From positions 434,001 through 498,000 of the forward strand of contig CAKMXJ010000010.1 of NCBI GenBank assembly GCA_928724745.1: a stretch of 64,000 nt of DNA, in the 5' to 3' direction. Source of the DNA: Anthracocystis setariae (Eukaryota; Basidiomycota; Ustilaginomycetes; Ustilaginales; Ustilaginaceae). The position numbers were made by a program, and so were the translations under genes. Shown here piece by piece: positions 36,463 through 48,143 of this stretch. The first letter of the stretch is position 1; each line of letters opens with the position of its first letter. The notes under the pieces were generated by a model, which did not search any database, was not told the origin of the DNA, and worked only from the letters and a program-made list of their open reading frames with translations.

Positions 36463-38546
36463 GAACTCGGGTGCACCTATCTTGCAAATGGCCGCTACCA
36501 GCAAGCGGTAGACAAACTCTGGATTGTTGACTCCGGAGCAACTCATCATATGGTAAATGATCGGAATATGTTGCTCACCTGGACGGACAAAACAGGACAG
36601 ATCAGCACAGCAGGAGATGAAAAGCTTCAAGTGAAGGCTATAGGAGATGCGTCACTCCAAGTTGGGGATGCAACAATCCAACTACTGGATGTACTCTACG
36701 TGCCAAAACTTAATGCAAATCTATTGTCTGTACAAGGCTTGATAGAGAATGGTGCACGTGTAACCTTCGATGAACACGGAACTGTCATTAGGCAGAATGA
36801 TGGTACTCAAGTACACTACAAGAGAAACAGGAAGCAAGGGCGTTTTGAAGTGCATGGACAAGCACTTGCCCTAGAACTAGAAGAAGCATTGGACGATGTC
36901 CCAGAGGACAGCCAGAACACAGGAACAAACCACGATAGCAAGAAAGACAAGGATAGCCAACTGTGGCACGAAAGATTTGGTCACCCAGGACGAGACAAGA
37001 CAAAGCAGATTCAAGAGCACTACCTGGGCACCGATAGCAAATTGGAACACGAGTCAAAGAACTGCAATGCCTGCAGCCAAGGCAAACAAACAAGGGCCAG
37101 GATGGGCCATTCCAAGACGGAACGTGCAGCAGCACCGTTGGAGCTAGTTCACATTGACCTGATGACAAACTATAAGGGTCATGCCAATTACCATTATGCA
37201 CTGGTGGCTGTTGATGATTTCTCGTCACTGATTTATGTGGAACCACTTTGCACCAAAGGCAGTGCACTCCATGCACTGAAAAGGTGGATCACAAAGATGG
37301 AACGGACAACAGACAGAAAACTCAAGACACTGCGCAGTGACAACGGTGGGGAGTGGCTCAGCCAAGAGGCCCTGGACTGGCAAATCCAGGAGGGATTCAA
37401 ATGGCAAAAGACAGTGCCAGGAATTAGCATTCAAAATGGACGTGCAGAGCGGGCAATCAGGTCAGTCCAGGAGAAAATGCGGGCAATGCTCATCGGCCGA
37501 GGCTGCCGCAGAGAATTATGGCCTTATGCAATTACTGCTGCAGCACACGTGATGAACCTGACACCGTCAGTCACAGGGTCCATCCCACATGAAAAATTCT
37601 ACGGCACCACAGCACATGGGCTTGTACAACAGCTCCGTGTGTTTGGCTGCCTGGCATGGGTACACATTCAGCCAAAGGAGCAACGGAGCTTGCAGATGGG
37701 CAAACATGGTGCAAGAGCATTACCAGCAATCATGATTGGATATGATGATGAACACAAAGCATGGAAGTTCTGCAATCCAGACAAGCCGTCATCAATCCGA
37801 TGGAGTAACTCTGCAACCTTTCATGAGGACAAGGGTTGGAGCAATCGCATGCAGGTGATGGAGCACCCCTTGCACAATGTTACAGGGACTCAGGATCTGG
37901 ATGCAGTACCACTGGACAATGATGACGACACTGCATCAGAGGCAGCGGTTGAAGACCTGCTGCCAGCAATGGACAATGCAGTTGGCTCTGCCAACACAGC
38001 TGCCCTAAATTTGGACCCCACACTAAAGGAGGCAATGAACAGCGGTGATGCGCAACTGTGGAAGGAAGCAATACGCAAAGAGCTCGAGGGATTGGAGGCA
38101 ATGGGCACATGGGAAATAGTAGACCATCCCCCTGGCGCACCGCTAGTGGACTCCAAGATAGTTCTCCGCTTAAAGCTGGACGCTGATGGTGTACCACTCA
38201 AGCACAAGGCCCGTCTTGTGGCAAGGGGGTTTATGCAAAGAGAAGGCATTGACTATCAAGAGACCTTCTCACCGGTTGCACCCCTTGGAGCCATTAGAGC
38301 CATCCTTGCACTGGCGGTACAGAATGATTGGGAAGTCCATGCACTTGATATCACAATGGCATACCTCAACTCAACATTGAAGGAAGCTATATTCATGAAG
38401 CCACCGGAAGGTTCTGATGTACCAGCTGGAAAGGTGTACAAGGTGGTCAAGGGCCTGTATGGCCTCAAACAGTCTGGACGGGAATGGAACTTGGAGTTTG
38501 ACAAGTCCCTGCGGCGCATTGGATTTTGTCAGGTAGAGTGTGCTCC
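36463..38546 (+). pseudogene. Copia Pol, 5' part: protease, integrase and start of reverse transcriptase
   Basis: This is in the same frame as gag, directly after its UAG. The protease active site DSGATHHM lies near 36527-36550. The integrase zinc finger (HERFGH ... CNACSQGK) is at about 36966-37085, followed by the catalytic core with VAVDDFSSL and LRSDNGGEW and the third acidic residue in QNGRAERAI. The reverse transcriptase starts at about 38060 and includes LDITMAYLNSTL and KGLYGLKQSGREW. The coding sequence is broken at 38546 by the chromovirus insertion, so no complete Pol can be made from this copy. An ATG at 36550 exists but lies past the protease active site and is unlikely to be the native start. 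Confidence 0.92.
38542..38546. repeat. Target-site duplication of the nested chromovirus (left)
   Basis: GCTCC precedes the chromovirus 5' LTR and is repeated at 47073-47077 after its 3' LTR. Confidence 0.92.
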
Positions 38547-38982
38547 TGTTACGGCTGGATGGGGGGCCCCAGCCAGCGCGCCACGGGAGTGCCGCCAGGC
38601 GCGTGCCGCGCGATGTGTGGCCACTAGGGCGCGCCGCGCGGTACGCCGTGAAGGAGGGGGCGCGCCACGCGTGACATGACAAGGTCCACCCCGCGATTCA
38701 GGACCGCGCGCGGCCTACGTTCCGTTGCGCGCCGCGCGGTACGCGTGATGCTTTATAAGTGAGCAGCCGCGCGTCACCTCCCTGTCGTCCGCTCGTCGAA
38801 TGTATTCTTAGTTACCTTGAGTAATAGCGAATATCAGACCCAACGGTAGAACCGTTAACCTCAGGATCGTGCTCGGTGACTCTCGTGGCCACCACTCCCG
38901 CCACGCGCTCTCAAGCCCAAGCCTCGCGCACCGCGTGCCACGCCGCACAGTCAGGAGGTTGTCAGACCCTTGGCGCTTAACA
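38547..38982 (+). repeat. Chromovirus 5' LTR
   Basis: This 436-bp LTR has canonical TG...CA ends and matches 46637-47072 base for base as far as I can read. It contains a TATAA box at 38754-38758. The ten-base segment GTCGAATGTA at 38795-38804 is complementary to bases just after the LTR. Confidence 0.94.
38754..38758 (+). promoter_or_regulatory. TATA box of the chromovirus LTR
   Basis: TTTATAAGT is the only good TATA element in the LTR, about 40 bp upstream of the predicted self-priming segment. The copy in the 3' LTR is at 46844-46848. Confidence 0.6.
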
Positions 38983-38983
38983 T

Positions 38984-38993
38984 TACATTCGAC
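38984..38993 (+). other. Putative self-priming site of the chromovirus
   Basis: TACATTCGAC starts one base after the 5' LTR and is the exact reverse complement of 38795-38804 inside the LTR, about 41 bp downstream of the TATA box. In Tf1-type elements the first bases of the transcript fold back on this position and prime minus-strand synthesis. No tRNA 3'-end match (TGG...) is seen here. Confidence 0.65.
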
Positions 38994-39020
38994 CTACCCG
39001 TCACCCCGCACGCTCAAACA

Positions 39021-41507
39021 ATGCTCCCCATGCCGGTGACTCGCAGCCAGGTCGCCAACCAAAACCCCTTGGACGACTGGTCCTCCGCCGGGGAAGACCC
39101 TCCCATGGTCGTCGCACCCTCCTCGGCGAGCGCGACCACCACCAACTCTCCCGCGCCCACCCCGGAGGCCGCTGTCCCGCTGATGGCGGTGCTCCAGGAG
39201 CAAATGGCCGTCCTGCAGGAATTGGTCCTGGAGATGCGCGCGTTGCGCCGCAAGCAAAGGGGCCAACCACCCCCCGCGGCTACCCCCTCCCAGCGCTCGC
39301 CCAGGGCCGCCGAAGCGGAGCCCCCCAGAGAGGCTCCCAACCCGGCGACGGATCGCGAGACATCCGAGCAGCGCTACGAGCGCGCCACCCGCCGGATGGA
39401 GCAGGACCCCCACCACGCCCGCGAGCCGCAGCCCGGGTACTCCCTCCCGGTCCCCCCTCTGGTGCCGTGGACCGCTCCCCTGGACGCGAGCCTCGACAAA
39501 GCTCCTGAACTCCGCATCGCTGCCCCCGACTGGGACGGTAAGCGGGAAGAGCTGGAGGCCTACATTGAGCAGTGCGAGCTGCACTTCGACCTCAACCCGG
39601 CACGCTTTGCCACAGACAACCGCCGGGTCCTCTGGGCCCTGGCACACGTGGGTGGCGCGCCTCGCGACCACCTGCGCAACATGCGCCAGGCGAGCCCCCA
39701 CGACCCGATCTTCCACGACTGGCCGCGCTACTGCGGTTCCCTACGCCGCACGTACGGCGATCCTCACCCAGGACATACGGCCAGGATGCAGCTGCAGAAG
39801 CTGCGTCAAACCGGGAGCGTCAGCCGCTTCGCTGCCGAGTTTCAGGCGCTGGCCACGCGAGCCAACGCTACCGACAAGCAGCAGCTGCTCACTACGTTCC
39901 AGCTGGGACTCCGTGAGACGTTCCGGCGCCACCTCCTACATGTGCAGACCCACGACCTGCAGGAGTACATCAACGCTGCTGTACGCACCGAGCAGCAGAT
40001 GCTCGAAACCGGCCTCGACTCAGCCGGAACCGCCCACATTCCGGGCCGCGCGACGGGCCGCAATGACGAGCGCCCCCGACCGGAGCCCGGTACGACCCCG
40101 ACGGGAGCCCCGACTGGTGGGCTGAACGCCGCTCGCCCCGCCGCCGCCCCGGCCGCCGCGCGCCCAGCTTTCCATGCTCCGGCCCGCGCCAACACGGCTT
40201 TGCAGAAGCTCACGGAGGACACACGCCGCTACCGGCGCGAGAACAACCTGTGCTACACCTGTGGCGAGAAGCACCTCGCGCGCGATTGCCCACAGGCCAC
40301 GCAGGAGCGCGCGCTGCGCGCTAATGTCATTACGGTTGAGCCCACTACAGGCAACTACCTCCTGCCGCCCGAAGGAGAAGATCCCGCTTCAGACCACGCG
40401 CCTACCGAGTGCGACCCCCCGGCCGAAAGGGGTGCCTACGACGAAGCGGTCTACGACCCCACCCTCGACCCCCTGGGTTTTGAGGACGCCCTTTTCCCTC
40501 CGCGCGCGGCCGTGGCTCAACTACTGACTCACCCCGATTGGTTCCCACTCCGCACGCATGTCGCCGCACTGGAACCCATCGCGGAGCCATCCGTCCAGAG
40601 CGACCACATCCGTGTGGGTCGTCACCCCAGCATTCCGGCCTACGAGTGCTGGGTCACCATTGACCACCTGCGGGCGCGCGCTCTCATCGACGGCGGCGCT
40701 ACTGCGTCCTTCGTGGCGAAGGATCTCCTCGAGGGCGCGGGCATTGACCTGCACGGGTTGGCCACTCCGGTTAAGACAGCGACGTTCGACGCAGCCTCGG
40801 AGCCCATCACTCATACCTGCAGGGCAGCCGTGGGGCTGGCGGGCCTCACCGTCGCCCCCCACCACCGCTTCTTCGTGGCCCCGCGCATATCGAGCTACGA
40901 CGTCGTCTTAGGCTTGGACTGGATCGAGGCCACGCGCCCCGTCCTCGACTACGAGGCTCGCGCCATGCAATTTCCCCTGCCCGGGCAAGGCGAGCCCGAG
41001 CCCGCGACGCCCCCGGCCGGGGCCATCCCCCCGCTGCCGTTTACCGACAATGCCGCCGAACACTGCGTCCTTGCCCAGGCGCACGCGGACGAGCTCGCCG
41101 CCGTACCGTCGACTAAGGACATCCCCGCCGCGTACCAGGAGTTTGCGGAGGTATTCAACGAGGCCAACGCCGACATCCTGCCGCGCCCGCGCCCCCAGGA
41201 CCACGAGATCAACCTCCTGCCGGGGGCCAAGATCCCACACGGGCCACTATACTCCCTGTCCGCACGCGAGCTCGATGAGCTCAAGAAGTACATTGACAAG
41301 ATGCTTGCTATTGGGTTCATTCGGGAATCGCAGAGCCCCGCCGCGGCCCCTATCATCTTTGTACCTAAAAAAGACGGTCGCCTCCGACCATGTGTAGACT
41401 ACCGCGCGCTCAACAGCGTGACCATCAAAGACAAGTACCCCATACCCCTCATCGCCGAACACTTGGACTGCCTCGCGCGAGCGCTGTCTTCACCAAACTC
41501 GACCTGA
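39021..41507 (+). pseudogene. Chromovirus Gag-protease-RT, first frame (ends at a frameshift)
   Basis: From ATG 39021 one frame encodes a Ty3-type Gag; a capsid-like helical region lies at about 39500-40000. A short zinc knuckle follows at 40251-40288 with spacing CX2CX3HX4C, one residue shorter than usual. The protease is IDGGATASF near 40687. The start of reverse transcriptase runs from about 41200 (PLYSLSARELDEL, FVPKKDGRLRPCVDYRALN). The frame then runs into a stop at 41505-41507, because the continuing RT motif (VFTKLDLKGAYN) lies in another frame from about 41483. The open frame upstream of 39021 has no ATG and lies partly in the LTR. Confidence 0.9.
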
Positions 41508-42780
41508 AGGGGGCGTACAACCTCCTCCGTATCAAGGAGGGGCACGAATGGAAAACGGCATTCCGCACGCGCTACGGTAGCTTCGAATACATGGTAATGC
41601 CATTCGGGTTGTGCAACGCGCCATCTACGTTCCAGCGCTTAATGAACCACATCCTGCACGACCTGCTCGACGTGTCCGTGGTGGTGTACCTGGACGACAT
41701 CCTCGTGTTCTCCCGCGATCCCGCCGAGCACGACGCACACGTGCGCGAGGTACTCCGCCGTTTGCGCCATAACCAGCTATATTGCGCTGCCGACAAGTGC
41801 GAATTTGGGGTCACCTCGGTGGAGTTCCTGGGCTACCGAGTCAGCCCGGCCGGCATCTCCATGGACCCGGCGAAGGTCGAGGCCGTAACTACCTGGCCCG
41901 CACCCACGACCATTCGTGACATCCAGGTATTCCTTGGCTTTGCCAACTTCTACCGACGATTCATCAAGCACTATTCGCGCGTGGCTCGCCCGCTCACAGA
42001 CCGCCTTAAGGGCAAAGCAAGCGGGCGCATCTCCTTAGAGCCCGCCGAGCTGGCCGCATTCGAGACCCTCAAGCGCGCATTCACCACGGCTCCTATCCTG
42101 CAGCATTTTGACCCAGCGCTGCCCACAGTAGTGGAAACCGACGCCAGCGACTACGTCGTGGCGGCCGTCCTGTCCCAATGGTACCCAATCAACCCCGCCA
42201 CTACGACAGCGCCGCGCCCGAGCACGCACCGTCTCCACCCAGTGGCGTATTGGTCACGGAAGATGCAGCCTGCCGAGCGCAACTACGAGATCCACGATAA
42301 GGAGCTCCTGGCCATCGTCGACTCCCTTCAAGCGTGGCGCCACTACTTACACGGGCTGCACGCACCGTTTGATGTCCTCACAGACCACCAAGCTCTCCAG
42401 TACTTCCAAACCAAGCGCCAGCTCAATCGCCGTCAGGCCCGTTGGGGCATCGCCCTGGCGGAGTTCGCATTCTCCATCACCTACCGCCCGGGCACAGAGG
42501 CCGCGCGGCCGGACGCCCTGTCACGCCGATCCGATGGCCACCCAAACCTCGCGGACGCCCAACGCCATGGCGACCCCGCTAATGTAGCTACCCTCTTGCC
42601 GCCCTCCCTGTTCATCCACCCCGAGACAACCGGCGCCGACCCCGTCAACTTCCCGGCCCCGGCCGCGCGCCGCGCGGCTCTCCTCCCGGCGACCGCCTTT
42701 CCGGCCACCCCGTCCAGCGCGGCTGACATCGCCGCCATCCTGTCCCGCTATCATGACCACCCCACCGCGGGGCACCCCCG
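41483..42780 (+). pseudogene. Chromovirus RT-RNase H, second frame
   Basis: This continues RT after the first frameshift: FTKLDLKGAYNLLRIKEG, MPFGLCNAPSTFQ and the catalytic YLDDILVFSR (about 41690-41720). It is followed by the thumb/connection region (FLGFANFYRRFI) and RNase H (ETDASDY, KELLAIVDSLQAW). It ends in the first half of the integrase zinc finger (HDHPTAGHP), where a second frameshift at about 42773-42784 moves the sequence into a third frame. Both shifts are equivalent to loss of one base (or gain of two). Confidence 0.9.
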
Positions 42781-42783
42781 GGC

Positions 42784-44019
42784 GTGGCTACTACCACCGC
42801 GCTCGTCCGCCGCCACCACAACTGGCCCACCCTCGCGCAAGATGTTGTCACCTACGTCGCCACCTGCTCTGCCTGCAAGCGCGCCAAAGCCCCGCGCCAT
42901 AAACCTTATGGGCTGCTACTTCCGTTGGGCGCGCCCGACCGTCCGTTCGGGTCCATCTCCATGGATCACATCGAGGGCCTCCCGCGCTCGCGCGTGGGCG
43001 GCACACTCTTCGATTCCATCCTTGTAGTCGTAGACCGCCTCACCAAGTTTGTGATTTTTATCCCAGCGCGGCAATCCGACACCGTTCCCGACCTCGCACG
43101 CATGCTCTTTACAAGTGTGTTCTGTTATTTTGGGTTGCCTGACCAGATTGTCTCCGACCGCGGGCGCACTTTCATCGCCTCCCTCTGGCGAGCGGTGCTA
43201 CAGCAACTCCAGGTCCGCCCGGCACTATCCACGGCCTACCACCCTCAAACTGACGGCCAAACCGAGCGCACCAATCAAACCCTGGAGGTCTTTTTGCGCT
43301 TCTACGTCAACTACCAGCAGGATGACTGGGCCGCGTGGCTCCCGCACGCGCAGCTTGCCATCAACAACCGCCCCGCTGGCGCCACCGGCCTCCCATCCAC
43401 CCTCCCCCTTTTTGGTTTTACGCCCAAAACGCTCCCGGGTTCCCCCGCGCTCGCCCCCGATGGGGCGCCACCCTCCCCGGCTTCCCTGCAGGTGCTCATC
43501 GCGTCCTGCCAGGACAACATCGCGCGTGCCGCGCGCGCCATGGCGAGCCTCGCAAACCGATCCAGGACGGATCGGTCTTACACCGGGGGTGACCAAGTAC
43601 TGCTGCGCACCAGACACCTGCGCCAGGACAGACCGTCCAAGAAGCTGTCCAACCCCCTCGCCGGACCATTTACGGTTCTAGAGGCCGTGGGCCAGCGCGC
43701 GTACAGGTTGGACCTGCCAGCAGGCTCCCGCGTTCACCCGGTATTCCATGTGAGCTTGCTCGAGCCATACCCAGCGGGCGCGCGCCCCACGGAGCACGCG
43801 CCACAAGCCACCAACCTCCAAGACGACCGCCAAGACTTCGAGGTGGAACGACTGCTGGAGGCACGAACGAGCAGACGGGGCCTCGAGTACCAGGTCAAGT
43901 GGGCCGGTTATGACGAGCCCACATGGGAGCCAGCGCATCACCTCGCCAATAGCCAAGAGCTGGTGGACGAGTTCCACAGGTCACACCCAGGAGCGCCCAC
44001 GGGACGAAGTCAGGCCTGA
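42784..44019 (+). pseudogene. Chromovirus integrase with C-terminal chromodomain, third frame
   Basis: This carries the rest of the HHCC finger (TCSACKRAK), then the DDE core: MDHIEGLP, VVDRLTKFVIFIP, IVSDRGRTFIASLW and YHPQTDGQTERTNQ. A GPY/F-type module follows (LSNPLAGPFTVLE, HPVFHVSLLEPY). The chromodomain is at about 43835-43975 (VERLLEART, YQVKWAGYDEPTWEP). Chromodomains in such integrases are known to steer insertion towards modified histones. The frame ends at a normal stop at 44017-44019. No ATG lies at its start, so it is only expressed if joined to the upstream frames. Confidence 0.92.
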
Positions 44020-44128
44020 CGGCGGCCGGGGGCAAGCGGCAACCTCCTAAGGCCGCGCGCTCCCTCAGGGCGAACCCCTAACCCGCCTCGCGTCGTCCTG
44101 CTCTTGGCGCGCTCGCCACCGTCGTTGG

Positions 44129-44216
44129 CGCGCGCACCCCCAGGACGAGCTTCCAGCCCGCCTCGCGTCAGCCCGCGCGCACCCCCAGGACGAGCTCCCA
44201 GCCCGCCTCGCGCCGG
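44129..44216. repeat. 45-bp tandem duplication in the chromovirus 3' region
   Basis: Two nearly identical 45-bp units (CGCGCACCCCCAGGACGAGC...) lie back to back, with a degenerate third unit upstream near 44055-44100. They sit between the pol stop and the end of the opposite-strand gene. Confidence 0.7.
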
Positions 44217-44496
44217 CTTACCCACGGCGTGCTCGCCACCCTTACGGGCGTGCCCGCTGCCCTCACACAGCCCCCCACTACCGCGCGGCATGCCAGAGGT
44301 CCTGGAACCCCGCGCGCCACAGCACTCGCGGAACCTCGCCACGCTCACTCCTCACTCTAATTCAGACACAAACGCTACAACACAAGCACAACAGCACGGA
44401 AAGCATTTTGGATTTCACGGCCGGCCACGGGGTCACCGGAGCCGGCCAGCAGACGTTGGGGAAACAGAGCAAGGGGCGCGCGGTACAGTTGAGGAC

Positions 44497-46359
44497 TCAG
44501 GCCGGAGCCGCGCCCTCTCCACCATCAAGAAGCGCTTGCCGGCGCGGACGCTTTGGCGTGCGAGGAGCCTCCGCCGCCAAGGGAGACGAGGGCGACGCGC
44601 GGCGCGCGGGTACCGCAGCGACGGGAGAGTCAGTAGCCGGGTGCGGGACGCCAGCCGGTGGCGCGCGATCCAGAAGGCGCCCAACACGCTCGCGAGCAGC
44701 GGCAACATGGGACGCGCTGTCCGAGTCCGACGAGTCCGAGGCAATCAGATACGCGGGACCGCTCACCCGCCAGTAGTCTACAAGCTCGTGCAGAGTCGTT
44801 CGCAGGGCGGCGGGCGTAGACTCCAGCATCATCAGGTGCCGCTTCATGGTGGAAGACTGCACGTCCATACCCTCCAGCAGGCCAGCGGCGGCGCACTGCC
44901 GAATCGTAACCTTGAGATCGTCGAGCGCGCGCTCGATGGCCTCCGTGCTGCGCTGGAGGTGCACCGCCTGCTTCCGGTAAGAAGCCGATGGCGCCGGCGG
45001 ATTGGAACCCAGGGACGACGACCCCCCAGCTTCCTCGTCACGACTACGCGGCGTCGCGCGGATGGTAGCGCTCACCCCCGGAGCGGCGCTGAGGGGTTTA
45101 CGCGCGGCAGCGCGGCGGGGACGAAGAGCCTTAGGCGAGCTCAGAGGACGGGGACGGTCGGCAGCCCGGGCTCGGGTAGCACGGGTCGCGCGGGGGCTGG
45201 GGGTAGCGGGCTCGGGCTCCTCCTCCACGGATTCGCCATCGCTCTCACTGCTCTCGTTGTCACCGCTTTGGTCGGCCCTAGTCCGACGACTGGTACGCGG
45301 CCAACGGCGCCTGGCGTAACGCTGCGCGACAGCGGCGCGCTCAGTCTCCATGTAGGGCGGGAGGGAGCCGACCGGCACCATCGACGGGGTCAGGGCGGGG
45401 TTAGGACGGTGGCCCAGGACGCGCATCCAGAGGTAGGCTTCCATCAGCCACGGGCCCTCGAGCCGATTCCCCAGCCACGGGATCCTGCCGCGCCAGTCGC
45501 ACTTACGCTTCGTGCCGCACGCGCTGCAAGGCGTCGGCATGCCCTCGAAGGCTTGGGCGATCTCTTCGGGGATCCTGGCGCCAGCGTCGCGCTTGCCCGT
45601 CACGGCGCCACGCTCGGGATCCACGTGGCATGCCGCGGCGTCGCAGCCCTTATGCTCGCATGCATAGCAGGGTGCCATGAATTCCTCGCAGTCGGGATCG
45701 CTGAGCACCAGAGCGGCCTTGATGAGACGTACCACGAAGGGGACGTCGCCGATGGGCTGGTCTTTGCGCTCCCGCATCAGGGAGTCCACGATAGGGCAGC
45801 TCCGCTCGCCCCACGGCAGGATCTCCCACACTTGATAGCGGAATTGACTCTGGTCGGCACGATCGTCGACGGAGGAGGGAGCTCGGTCGCGAGCCTCGGG
45901 GGAAGGTGGGTCGCGCACCTTGGGGGAAGGTGCACCATCGCAAACCTGGGGCGGCGGCGAAGAAGGGATCTCGATCACAGGAGCGCTCGGCGTTACGGGT
46001 ACTGTCAGACACCGCATCCCCACCGGGAAGATCGGAGTCAGTACGTGCACCGCATCAAAACGCCCGGGGAAGGGGCTACTTACCGGTCTTGTCGGTCGGA
46101 GAGGGTGCAGCTGGAGGGGGCCCGGCCACAGCCACCACCGGGGGCGGGACGGCGGTATCGCTGCTTGCCCGAGGATCGGGGACCACGGCCAAGATTGCAC
46201 GAAGGGTGGACGCGGCCTCAGCTTCAGCGCGCGTCTTCTCGTTCGAAGGCTTGTCGGCTGGCCAGGCACAGGAACCGGAAATTCAGAGCCACGCGTCAGT
46301 CAACGCCTCGCCGCAGGTGCCGTACCCCAAACGTGCTCATACTTACTATTGGTGGTCAT
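44497..46359 (-). CDS. Opposite-strand, probably spliced gene inside the chromovirus; Cys-cluster protein
   Basis: The gene lies between pol and the 3' LTR on the minus strand. Proposed exons are 46347-46359, 46084-46257 and 44497-46001, giving about 563 aa. Both introns (46258-46346, 89 nt; 46002-46083, 82 nt) start GTAAGT, contain CTGAC branch-like sequences and end CAG. Splicing joins an ATG in good context to the 1.5-kb frame without a stop, and exon 2 reads in a different raw frame from the long ORF. The protein has two cysteine clusters, C174-x2-C177-x4-C182-x4-C187 and C221-x2-C224-x5-C230-D-W, an acidic Ser/Glu patch, Arg/Ala/Pro-rich linkers and a helical C-terminal segment. It may bind zinc, DNA or RNA. 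I recognise no named family. Because it is antisense to the element's genomic RNA, its introns would survive retrotransposition. Confidence 0.72.
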
Positions 46360-46621
46360 TGTTGTTCAGCTAACTCGGTGTTCCAGCGTAAGGGGGCGAG
46401 ATGTAGTCAGGTGGTGGAAGGAGGGAGAAGTGTACACCCCCGTCGATCGGCCATTGCGAGCCGCAGCACCCAAATGAGGCTGAGTCCCTCCGCTGCGCAA
46501 CGCTTTGTGCGCCCAGCGATCGACGCGTGCGCCGCGCCACGCCCCACGAGTGAAAATTTTTGGGACCACTCCCGCCCGCCGCCGCGAGTGGGGACTGCGC
46601 GCTCCGGAGTGCGCGCACCCC

Positions 46622-46636
46622 GAGGCGGGGGGGTAA
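46622..46636 (+). other. Polypurine tract of the chromovirus
   Basis: A G-rich purine run ending GGGGGGGTAA abuts the 3' LTR at 46637. This is the usual plus-strand primer position. Confidence 0.65.
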
Positions 46637-47072
46637 TGTTACGGCTGGATGGGGGGCCCCAGCCAGCGCGCCACGGGAGTGCCGCCAGGCGCGTGCCGCG
46701 CGATGTGTGGCCACTAGGGCGCGCCGCGCGGTACGCCGTGAAGGAGGGGGCGCGCCACGCGTGACATGACAAGGTCCACCCCGCGATTCAGGACCGCGCG
46801 CGGCCTACGTTCCGTTGCGCGCCGCGCGGTACGCGTGATGCTTTATAAGTGAGCAGCCGCGCGTCACCTCCCTGTCGTCCGCTCGTCGAATGTATTCTTA
46901 GTTACCTTGAGTAATAGCGAATATCAGACCCAACGGTAGAACCGTTAACCTCAGGATCGTGCTCGGTGACTCTCGTGGCCACCACTCCCGCCACGCGCTC
47001 TCAAGCCCAAGCCTCGCGCACCGCGTGCCACGCCGCACAGTCAGGAGGTTGTCAGACCCTTGGCGCTTAACA
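46637..47072 (+). repeat. Chromovirus 3' LTR
   Basis: 436 bp, matching 38547-38982 without visible differences. Confidence 0.94.
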
Positions 47073-47077
47073 GCTCC
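47073..47077. repeat. Target-site duplication of the nested chromovirus (right)
   Basis: GCTCC, identical to 38542-38546. Confidence 0.92.
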
Positions 47078-48143
47078 CTGCATCTACATCAAGGGACACG
47101 GCAAGGATTTGGTCATTGTTGTCATCTACGTTGATGACACATTGGTGATCGCACCAAAACTAGAAGCTGTACTCGAAGTCAAGAAGCAGATCGGTGAAAA
47201 GTGGAAGATGGAGGACAGCGGTGATGTCTCCCATTTCCTAGGGATTAAGATCAACCGTGACCGTGTCAACCACACAATGAACTTAGGTCAAGCCAGCTAC
47301 ATCGATCAAGTCCTCAAGAAACACCTTGACAAGCGCACACGGCCAGTGGCTGTCCCAATGCAAGAGATCCCAGAGGGAACTGTTGTTGCTACTAGCGCAC
47401 AACAAAAGGAGTACCCAATAATTGTTGGCAAGCTGCTCTGGCTTGCAAACTGCACACGCCCAGACCTTAGTCTAGCAGTGAGTGTCCTGGCAAGGCACAT
47501 GCGGCAACCCTCACAGGAGCACTACAATGCAGCACAGCGTGTGCTTCGATACCTTGAGGGCACAAAGGACATCGGACTTGTATACAAGGCCAACACGGTG
47601 CAAGAGCCATTGACAGCTCACTGTGATGCAAACTGGGCTAGTGATGCCACAGTACAAAGGAGAAGTACTTCCGGCTCAGTTGCGCTTGTGTATGGCAACC
47701 CGGTTGCTTGGAAGTCTGCCACACAGAAATGTGTATCGCTCTCAGCAGTGGAAGCTGAGTTTGTTGCCGCAACAGAGGCAACAAGGGAGGTACTGTTCCT
47801 CAAGCAACTATTCCGGTCAATTGGCATCGCTACAGGTATGCCAACAATCTACTCAGACAACACTGGTTGCATCCAAGTCAGCAAAGACCCAGCTCAACAC
47901 TGGAAGCTAAAGCACATTGACACCAAGTACCATTTCATTCGAGATAATGTTCAGGAGGGGAAGGTGCAAGTCAAGTACGTCGACACAAAGCGCAACTTGG
48001 CAGACATGCTCACTAAGCCGGTGGGGAAGCAGGTTATACAGAATGCAAGGATTGGACTACGCTTGCAACAGCCAGTTGCAGGTGCTAGCAAAGGTGCACT
48101 CAGCTATGCTGATGTAGTAAAAGGAGGAAGGGCAAATGTCTAG
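47073..48143 (+). pseudogene. Copia Pol, 3' part: rest of reverse transcriptase and RNase H
   Basis: This continues the copia RT interrupted at 38546. The catalytic YVDD is in VVIYVDDTLVIAP (about 47130). The connection region follows (FLGIKINRD, KLLWLANCTRPDLSLAVSVLARHM), then RNase H with CDANWASD and SLSAVEAEFVAATEA and the C-terminal KHIDTKYHFIRD and RNLADMLTKPV blocks typical of copia. Leaving out one GCTCC copy, the two pol parts add up to 3150 bases, a multiple of three. No lesion other than the insertion is therefore present in pol. The stop is at 48141-48143. Confidence 0.93.

Follow-up and report, generated by a model that had tools for sequence, protein, structure and literature searches.

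Genes with introns are not expected inside long terminal repeat (LTR) retrotransposons, because retrotransposition removes introns from sense genes. How, then, could such an element carry one? The question is raised by a 64,000-nucleotide stretch of the basidiomycete Anthracocystis setariae (assembly GCA_928724745.1, contig CAKMXJ010000010.1, positions 434,001 to 498,000 of the forward strand; hereafter the window), where a minus-strand gene at 44497-46359 lies between pol and the 3' LTR of a Ty3/gypsy chromovirus and encodes a predicted protein of 563 amino acids in three exons, with its ATG at 46359. This is almost certainly an accessory gene of the element that codes for a protein, its transcription running opposite to gag-pol and its RNA being spliced, and a like-placed gene occurs in four element families of the same genome (F1 to F4), the window copy being a member of F1.

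Exon 1, of 13 nt including the ATG, occupies 46347-46359; it is followed by intron 1 (89 nt, 46258-46346), exon 2 (174 nt, 46084-46257), intron 2 (82 nt, 46002-46083) and exon 3, which has 500 full codons and the stop (44497-46001), all on the minus strand. Both introns run from GTAAGT to CAG and contain CTGAC, and exon 2 is read in a different frame from the raw 590-codon minus-strand open reading frame (ORF) at 44497-46269. An earlier reading of the same letters, the original prediction, had given the span, the lengths and ends of both introns, the branch-like sequence and the separate frame of exon 2, and all of these were exact on re-reading.

The splice model holds across copies of the element. 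A search of the genome (21.5 Mb in 36 contigs) returned 23 DNA matches, of which 18 near-full-length copies, including the window copy, were aligned and five fragmentary matches were left out; columns inserted relative to the window were omitted from the F1 counts. The copies fall into group A (the window copy and L009-L012), group B (L013-L017 and L025) and group C (L018-L024). GT(A/G)AGT and (C/T)AG are found at the ends of both introns in 18/18 copies despite the divergence of the introns themselves, where 24 of the 89 columns of intron 1 and 38 of the 82 of intron 2 vary. The introns change in length by single bases, and all of group C shares exon indels of 15 and 27 nt. Across exon 2, L013 and L015, the group B copies examined, each meet two stops when read in the frame of the raw long ORF, and the spliced frame is open in both; stop counts for L018 and L024 were not used, since gap codons had been counted as stops. 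Furthermore, in the spliced frame exon 2 has a synonymous divergence (dS) of 0.42-0.61 and a non-synonymous divergence (dN) of 0.14-0.21 in six pairs of copies, as expected of a constrained reading frame. Read in the raw frame, the four pairs that include the window copy have a dN above their dS, and the two pairs between groups B and C have a dS of 0.30 and 0.27 with a dN of 0.21 and 0.18.

That this is a real accessory gene under selection, as the original prediction proposed, is supported both by codon-position bias and by low dN/dS between copies. In exon 3 the window copy differs from L013 at 28 first, 29 second and 112 third codon positions and from L018 at 27, 31 and 112 (chi-square p ~1e-18 in each case). 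Antisense dN/dS was obtained from seven of the 18 copies (the window copy, L009, L012, L013, L015, L018 and L024), picked for the lack of exon frameshifts, and the nine pairs gave 0.14-0.29 for the spliced frame and 0.12-0.28 for exon 3. Between the window copy and copies of groups B and C, dS is 0.38-0.42, dN about 0.06 and the ratio 0.14-0.17 (for L013, 0.16, with a 95% bootstrap interval of 0.12-0.22); the remaining five pairs gave 0.19-0.29, and the window copy paired with L012, both of them copies whose two LTRs are identical, 0.21 (0.10-0.41). The gag-pol of F1, computed from L009, L012, L020 and L024, has a dN/dS of 0.15-0.33, so that at the codon level the antisense gene is constrained about as strongly as gag-pol; purifying selection on it is evident.

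Related genes were sought with the protein in the same genome, and 37 merged places beyond F1 were found at 31-44% identity; the five that were fetched belong to a second family, F2, whose integrase is 71% identical to that of F1, the antisense proteins being much less alike (31%). The F2 gene has 613-617 codons; in 5/5 fetched copies its exon 1 measures 7 nt and its intron, which bears GTAAGT, CTGAC and CAG, 75-79 nt. Its frame is open in four of them, which gave dN/dS values of 0.14-0.28, and 0.05-0.11 in the core (L030 excluded). F1 and F2 antisense proteins are homologous (hhalign E 3e-14) and share the core CxxC...C...H...CxxC...CDWxGR(I/V)P...EGxxLMEAYLxxRxxGxRPNP. The C-termini of the F2 proteins of L029 and L031-L033 are acidic and carry VVMVDSD, which we take to resemble a SUMO-interacting motif. 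F3, whose integrase is 42% identical to that of F1, has an antisense gene of 505-522 codons that is interrupted once, by an intron of 70-73 nt, and is intact in 4/4 tested copies; among four of the five fetched copies (L035 was dropped, its 5' part being replaced) dN/dS is 0.17-0.24, falling to 0.05-0.09 over the last 215 codons. The intron length implied by match coordinates is 68-75 nt in 23 of 24 F3 exon pairs and 106 nt in one decayed copy, and these lengths cover all three remainders modulo 3; splicing would be the simplest way to reconcile them with open exons. F4 has two integrase places; the antisense region fetched from one of them (L040) contains an intron-free frame of 611 codons, whose product is homologous to that of F3 (31% identity over 197 amino acids, E 8e-16). 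Its DNA is continuous exactly at the F3 intron position (GTACC|ATG), which gives independent support for the F3 intron boundaries. The F4 protein (L040:413-2248) has repeated RRSARLAGS-like segments in its N-terminal half, and F3 has one RRSARLA. F2, F3 and F4 were classed as chromoviruses solely from integrase matches extending across the region of the chromodomain.

The place and orientation of these genes are largely constant. The lists of antisense places hold only scored candidates, so that the counts are of what was found. For F1 and F2, 51 of 60 merged antisense places lie antisense within 4 kb downstream of an F1 or F2 integrase and none lies in sense; of the nine with no integrase within 4 kb, two are antisense, with an F2 integrase 9.3 and 9.5 kb away, and another is 8.1 kb from an integrase of 43% identity. 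Seen from the integrase, the gene is present at 18/18 F1 and 33/38 F2 places. For F3, 24 of 25 places matching exon 2 are antisense, 224-460 nt downstream of the integrase, none is in sense, and one has no integrase; the F3 gene is missing at four of 27 integrase places of 42-47% identity, two of these being F4, and at eight of nine of 31-36% identity. Altogether, an antisense gene of this kind accompanies 76 of 92 merged integrase places (from 102 matches, and including the one F4 copy, L040), and none was seen in sense. Two loci of more distant Ty3 families, downstream of integrases of 31% and 33% identity, hold no antisense frame longer than 143 codons, stop to stop, in about 2.4 kb, and the idea that all Ty3 families have such a gene was therefore rejected.

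The predicted product has two conserved Cys clusters, low-complexity flanks and, in a low-confidence model, a helical C-terminal part. The first cluster (C111, C114, C119, C124 and H125 of exon 3; 45625-45669, minus strand) is unchanged in 18/18 F1 copies, C124 not being shared with F2; the second (C158, C161 and C167, followed by D-W; 45493-45528, minus strand) keeps its three Cys in 18/18. F3 and F4 proteins each have two CxxC-x6-7-C clusters, and those of F1 and F2 are similar (x4-10). These CxxC-x4-10-C pairs, as we take it, merely resemble the Zn2Cys6 motif, their linkers being longer, and the Zn_clus family of fungal Zn2Cys6 factors had no match in F1-F3 proteins; nor had PF04195, the TRP28 family of Retand-type proteins. 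With Pfam, the F1-F3 proteins gave nothing above the cut-off and, up to an E value of 10, nothing but a weak SOG2 match (E 0.66) that was taken as chance. In a set of 5.8 billion proteins, with about 8000 candidates scored for each query, neither exon 3 (at E up to 0.001) nor alignment A1 (at E up to 0.01) found a relative. The integrase, used as a control query, matched 2444 proteins of that set, with Ustilago hordei at 44% among the best, so fungi are represented in it; no close relative of F1 is among the listed integrase matches, and among the 120 listed integrase-matching proteins the best reach 66-76% identity to the integrases of F3 and F4. Alignments A3 and A2 had no match in viral contigs.

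Several other explanations of the locus have to be weighed. The minus-strand frame might be the shadow of a long sense gene or of a high G+C content, and an 886-codon sense ORF (44104-46764, plus strand) does cover the gene, free of stops across exon 3 in 18/18 copies. Its dN/dS over exon 3 is, however, 0.8-2.1 in nine pairs, against 0.14-0.29 for the antisense frame, and exceeds the antisense value in all nine; in the two pairs that were bootstrapped it is 1.8-2.0 (1.3-3.2), with 1.98 (1.39-3.24) for the window copy and L013. A different sense frame does give low ratios (0.21-0.34), an effect of its third positions lying opposite the antisense third positions, but it is interrupted by 7-9 stops in every copy. 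The codon-position test thus refutes the shadow, whose probability we consider negligible, and by these ratios the sense ORF is a by-product with no coding constraint. Another possibility is a passenger, a host gene captured once and unused by the element, as introns like those of host genes might suggest. We regard it as very improbable, since selection is detected even between the window copy and L012, since antisense genes occupy the same place in four families, and since no clear host paralogue was found, most F1 and F2 places adjoining an integrase, as given above (the nine others were not all inspected).

Two further alternatives concern the product. The antisense RNA might matter and not the protein, by pairing with the genomic RNA and either feeding host RNA interference or lowering expression as a control of copy number. 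Such a transcript would have the sequence complementary to the 3' portion of the genomic RNA, and genes for RNA interference are present in the host, where one Argonaute (Piwi) frame and three RNA-dependent RNA polymerase frames exceed the family cut-offs (genome G000, C11:421877-422797, C20:365967-367769, C3:1018875-1020653 and C34:363373-365331). A role of the RNA alone would nevertheless leave unexplained the codon-level selection, the in-frame exon indels shared within a group and the unchanged Cys codons, and we think it unlikely, although an RNA-level effect may exist in addition to the protein. The protein might instead be structural, or act in the particle or the pre-integration complex, in nuclear import or integration, rather than as a regulator: basic low-complexity stretches and Cys clusters would suit nucleic-acid chaperones too, and nuclear entry and further accessory roles are among those discussed for plant antisense ORFs in PMC7264820. 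Pfam, PDB-sequence and fold searches gave no likeness to capsid, nucleocapsid or integrase-binding proteins, which with such weak models is little evidence, and we hold this alternative to be somewhat unlikely. In our preferred reading the product is a nuclear protein that binds metal as well as nucleic acid and adjusts the element's own transcription or its fate in the host, a kind of role proposed for antisense proteins of other LTR elements. This reading is preferred because of the analogy with GENE23 of Grande, with the proposal made for Retand TRP28 proteins and with HBZ, and by itself its chance is slightly short of even. Taken as a whole, the gene, the retention of its introns and a nuclear regulatory role are the best explanation of the locus, to which we give a probability of about 60%.

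A number of observations weigh against that explanation. By the original prediction, a frame broken at random positions in sibling elements would count against the gene; the frame is clean in 10 of 18 F1 copies. In the other eight, damage shortens or alters the product: in six, indels lead to early stops, and in L021 and L025 the damage is local and overall length modulo three is kept. In F2, the frame of L030 stops after 84 codons, that of L029 has a short local excursion, which was left as is, and five of the 38 integrase places have no gene inside 4 kb. F1/F2 and F3/F4 proteins are not demonstrably homologous (E 0.0027, probability 11%), and a single homology across all four families was dropped as merely suggestive. 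No relative of the antisense proteins was found in Pfam, in PDB by sequence (no match below E 0.45) or by fold; the structure models are weak, with mean predicted local distance difference test (pLDDT) values of 43 and 56, and the best fold match of the latter has an E value of 3.9, so that the role of the product is a guess. Finally, no TATA-like box was found in L013, L018 and L024 of F1 or in the F3 and F4 loci that were scanned, and that of the window copy, TATAAAG, sits 488 bp upstream of the ATG, in the LTR. As to the frameshifts, copies L014, L017 and L019-L023 have exon indels of 1-2 bases, some at the same place in different groups, and about 16 of 20 such indels in these seven copies fall in runs of G or C, where decay and assembly error are indistinguishable; this pattern is as expected of long-read assembly error or slippage.

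How the introns might survive can be proposed as follows. The antisense transcript would begin upstream of 46359, either in the LTR or at an internal promoter. The latter is suggested by F2, where each of the three loci scanned has TATATAA 88-89 bp ahead of the ATG, although as an own promoter this box is only suggestive; in L033 the ATG precedes the 3' LTR by 286 bp. The transcript would then be spliced and translated into the Cys-cluster protein. Copying of the element, on the other hand, would run through the sense RNA, where the spliceosome would be blind to antisense introns, so that each new copy would inherit them. This agrees with the original prediction that the antisense position spares the introns: they recur antisense in F1, F2 and F3, and the sense gag-pol is uninterrupted in L009, L020 and L024.

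The antisense gene also has a history different from that of gag-pol. Group A is about 97% identical to the other groups in gag-pol and about 85% from 44170 to U3, a name given from the divergence pattern alone to the first 180 bp of the 3' LTR (to 46816). Between groups, dS is about 0.4 in the antisense gene and 0.05-0.09 in gag-pol; for L009 and L024 it is 0.406 (bootstrap 0.329-0.496) and 0.052 (0.040-0.066), respectively. Faster evolution as the sole cause is excluded, since dS jumps about 8-fold at one place within the same pair. The drop in identity coincides with 44-nt imperfect repeats (44054-44217, plus strand), which are the likely breakpoint of the 3' block (44170-46816). A single template switch at these repeats, just past pol, would replace the antisense gene and U3 together, and we infer from the alignments that recombination between subfamilies moves them as a unit. 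Such movement is consistent with a protein adapted to its own promoter region; a single breakpoint explains it equally well.

The element itself belongs to group A, is on the plus strand at 38547-47072 and has LTRs of 436 bp (38547-38982 and 46637-47072), a length that corrects the 300 bp of an earlier repeat detection. The LTRs are 100% identical and flanked by the target-site duplication GCTCC; the copy is young. Its order is gag, protease, reverse transcriptase, RNase H, integrase and then a chromodomain, which makes it a chromovirus. Three plus-strand frames hold gag, the aspartic protease and a weak zinc knuckle (38970-41507), reverse transcriptase and RNase H (41390-43027), and integrase with the chromodomain (42784-44019). 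The gag-pol of the window copy (38970-44019) is thus split over three frames, and in L009, L020 and L024 it is a single frame of 1712 codons. The insertion interrupts a Ty1/copia-like pol, which runs over 36550-38546 and resumes at 47073-48143 past the 5-bp duplication (frames assigned by eye).

These results suggest that antisense placement is a simple way round intron loss. It is found in three families, and a fourth is without one intron exactly where the junction was predicted, which opens the rule to direct test. To judge by codon-level selection, such elements seem to need more than gag-pol, and the apparent block exchange suggests that subfamilies trade control modules, beyond replication genes. 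Routine repeat masking would be expected to hide such genes. More tentatively, and this we consider doubtful, smut-like fungal chromoviruses may share ancient intron-bearing antisense regulators with a double Cys cluster, HBZ-like outside the retroviruses, which evolve fast, recombine between subfamilies as a cassette with their own promoter region, and gain or lose introns, as is possible where splicing acts solely on the unpackaged strand.

The closest counterpart by description is brtn of the Boty-like chromoviruses of Botrytis cinerea, on which Zhao et al. reportedly published in 2011, going by the title. Like the elements described here, Boty is fungal, has a gag-pol ending in a chromodomain (PMC4227169) and carries an extra antisense gene between pol and the 3' LTR (PMC7264820); passing mentions in PMC8365987 and PMC4227169 also name brtn as its antisense gene. 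Its host, unlike ours, is an ascomycete, and brtn is likened to the genes here by its description in such mentions. In plants, gene23 of Grande and the antisense ORFs of RIRE2, Retand (with a TRP28 domain) and PvRetro13 likewise lie between pol and the 3' LTR and are kept in most copies; of these, gene23 is driven by a promoter of its own and its product is nuclear (PMC7264820). As in the class termed aORF-3R, the F1 gene is antisense, lies between pol and the 3' LTR in most copies and is conserved like the other proteins of its element. The plant ORFs differ in that the available text of PMC7264820 mentions no introns for them, unlike F1-F3, and in their TRP28 or SMC domains, which F1-F3 proteins lack by Pfam; Retand, furthermore, belongs to a non-chromovirus lineage, and a regulatory role has been proposed for its TRP28 proteins (PMC11963269). 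The HBZ and APH genes of the deltaretroviruses are likewise antisense, in the 3' region and spliced (PMC10186651). They are retroviral, with a promoter in the 3' LTR and, for HBZ, a bZIP-type product, and are likened here by description. The word "antisense" is missing from the main text of a survey of fungal LTR elements (PMC3248453), and PMC7264820 closes with a call to search for antisense and spliced transcripts. Among the best-matching open-access titles and beginnings of abstracts, none described introns in the antisense gene of an LTR retrotransposon; the original brtn paper was outside this scope, so that absence is not claimed. Antisense accessory genes are thus already known from plants and from Boty, and spliced ones from deltaretroviruses; new here are intron-bearing antisense genes, kept by selection, in several families of fungal chromoviruses.
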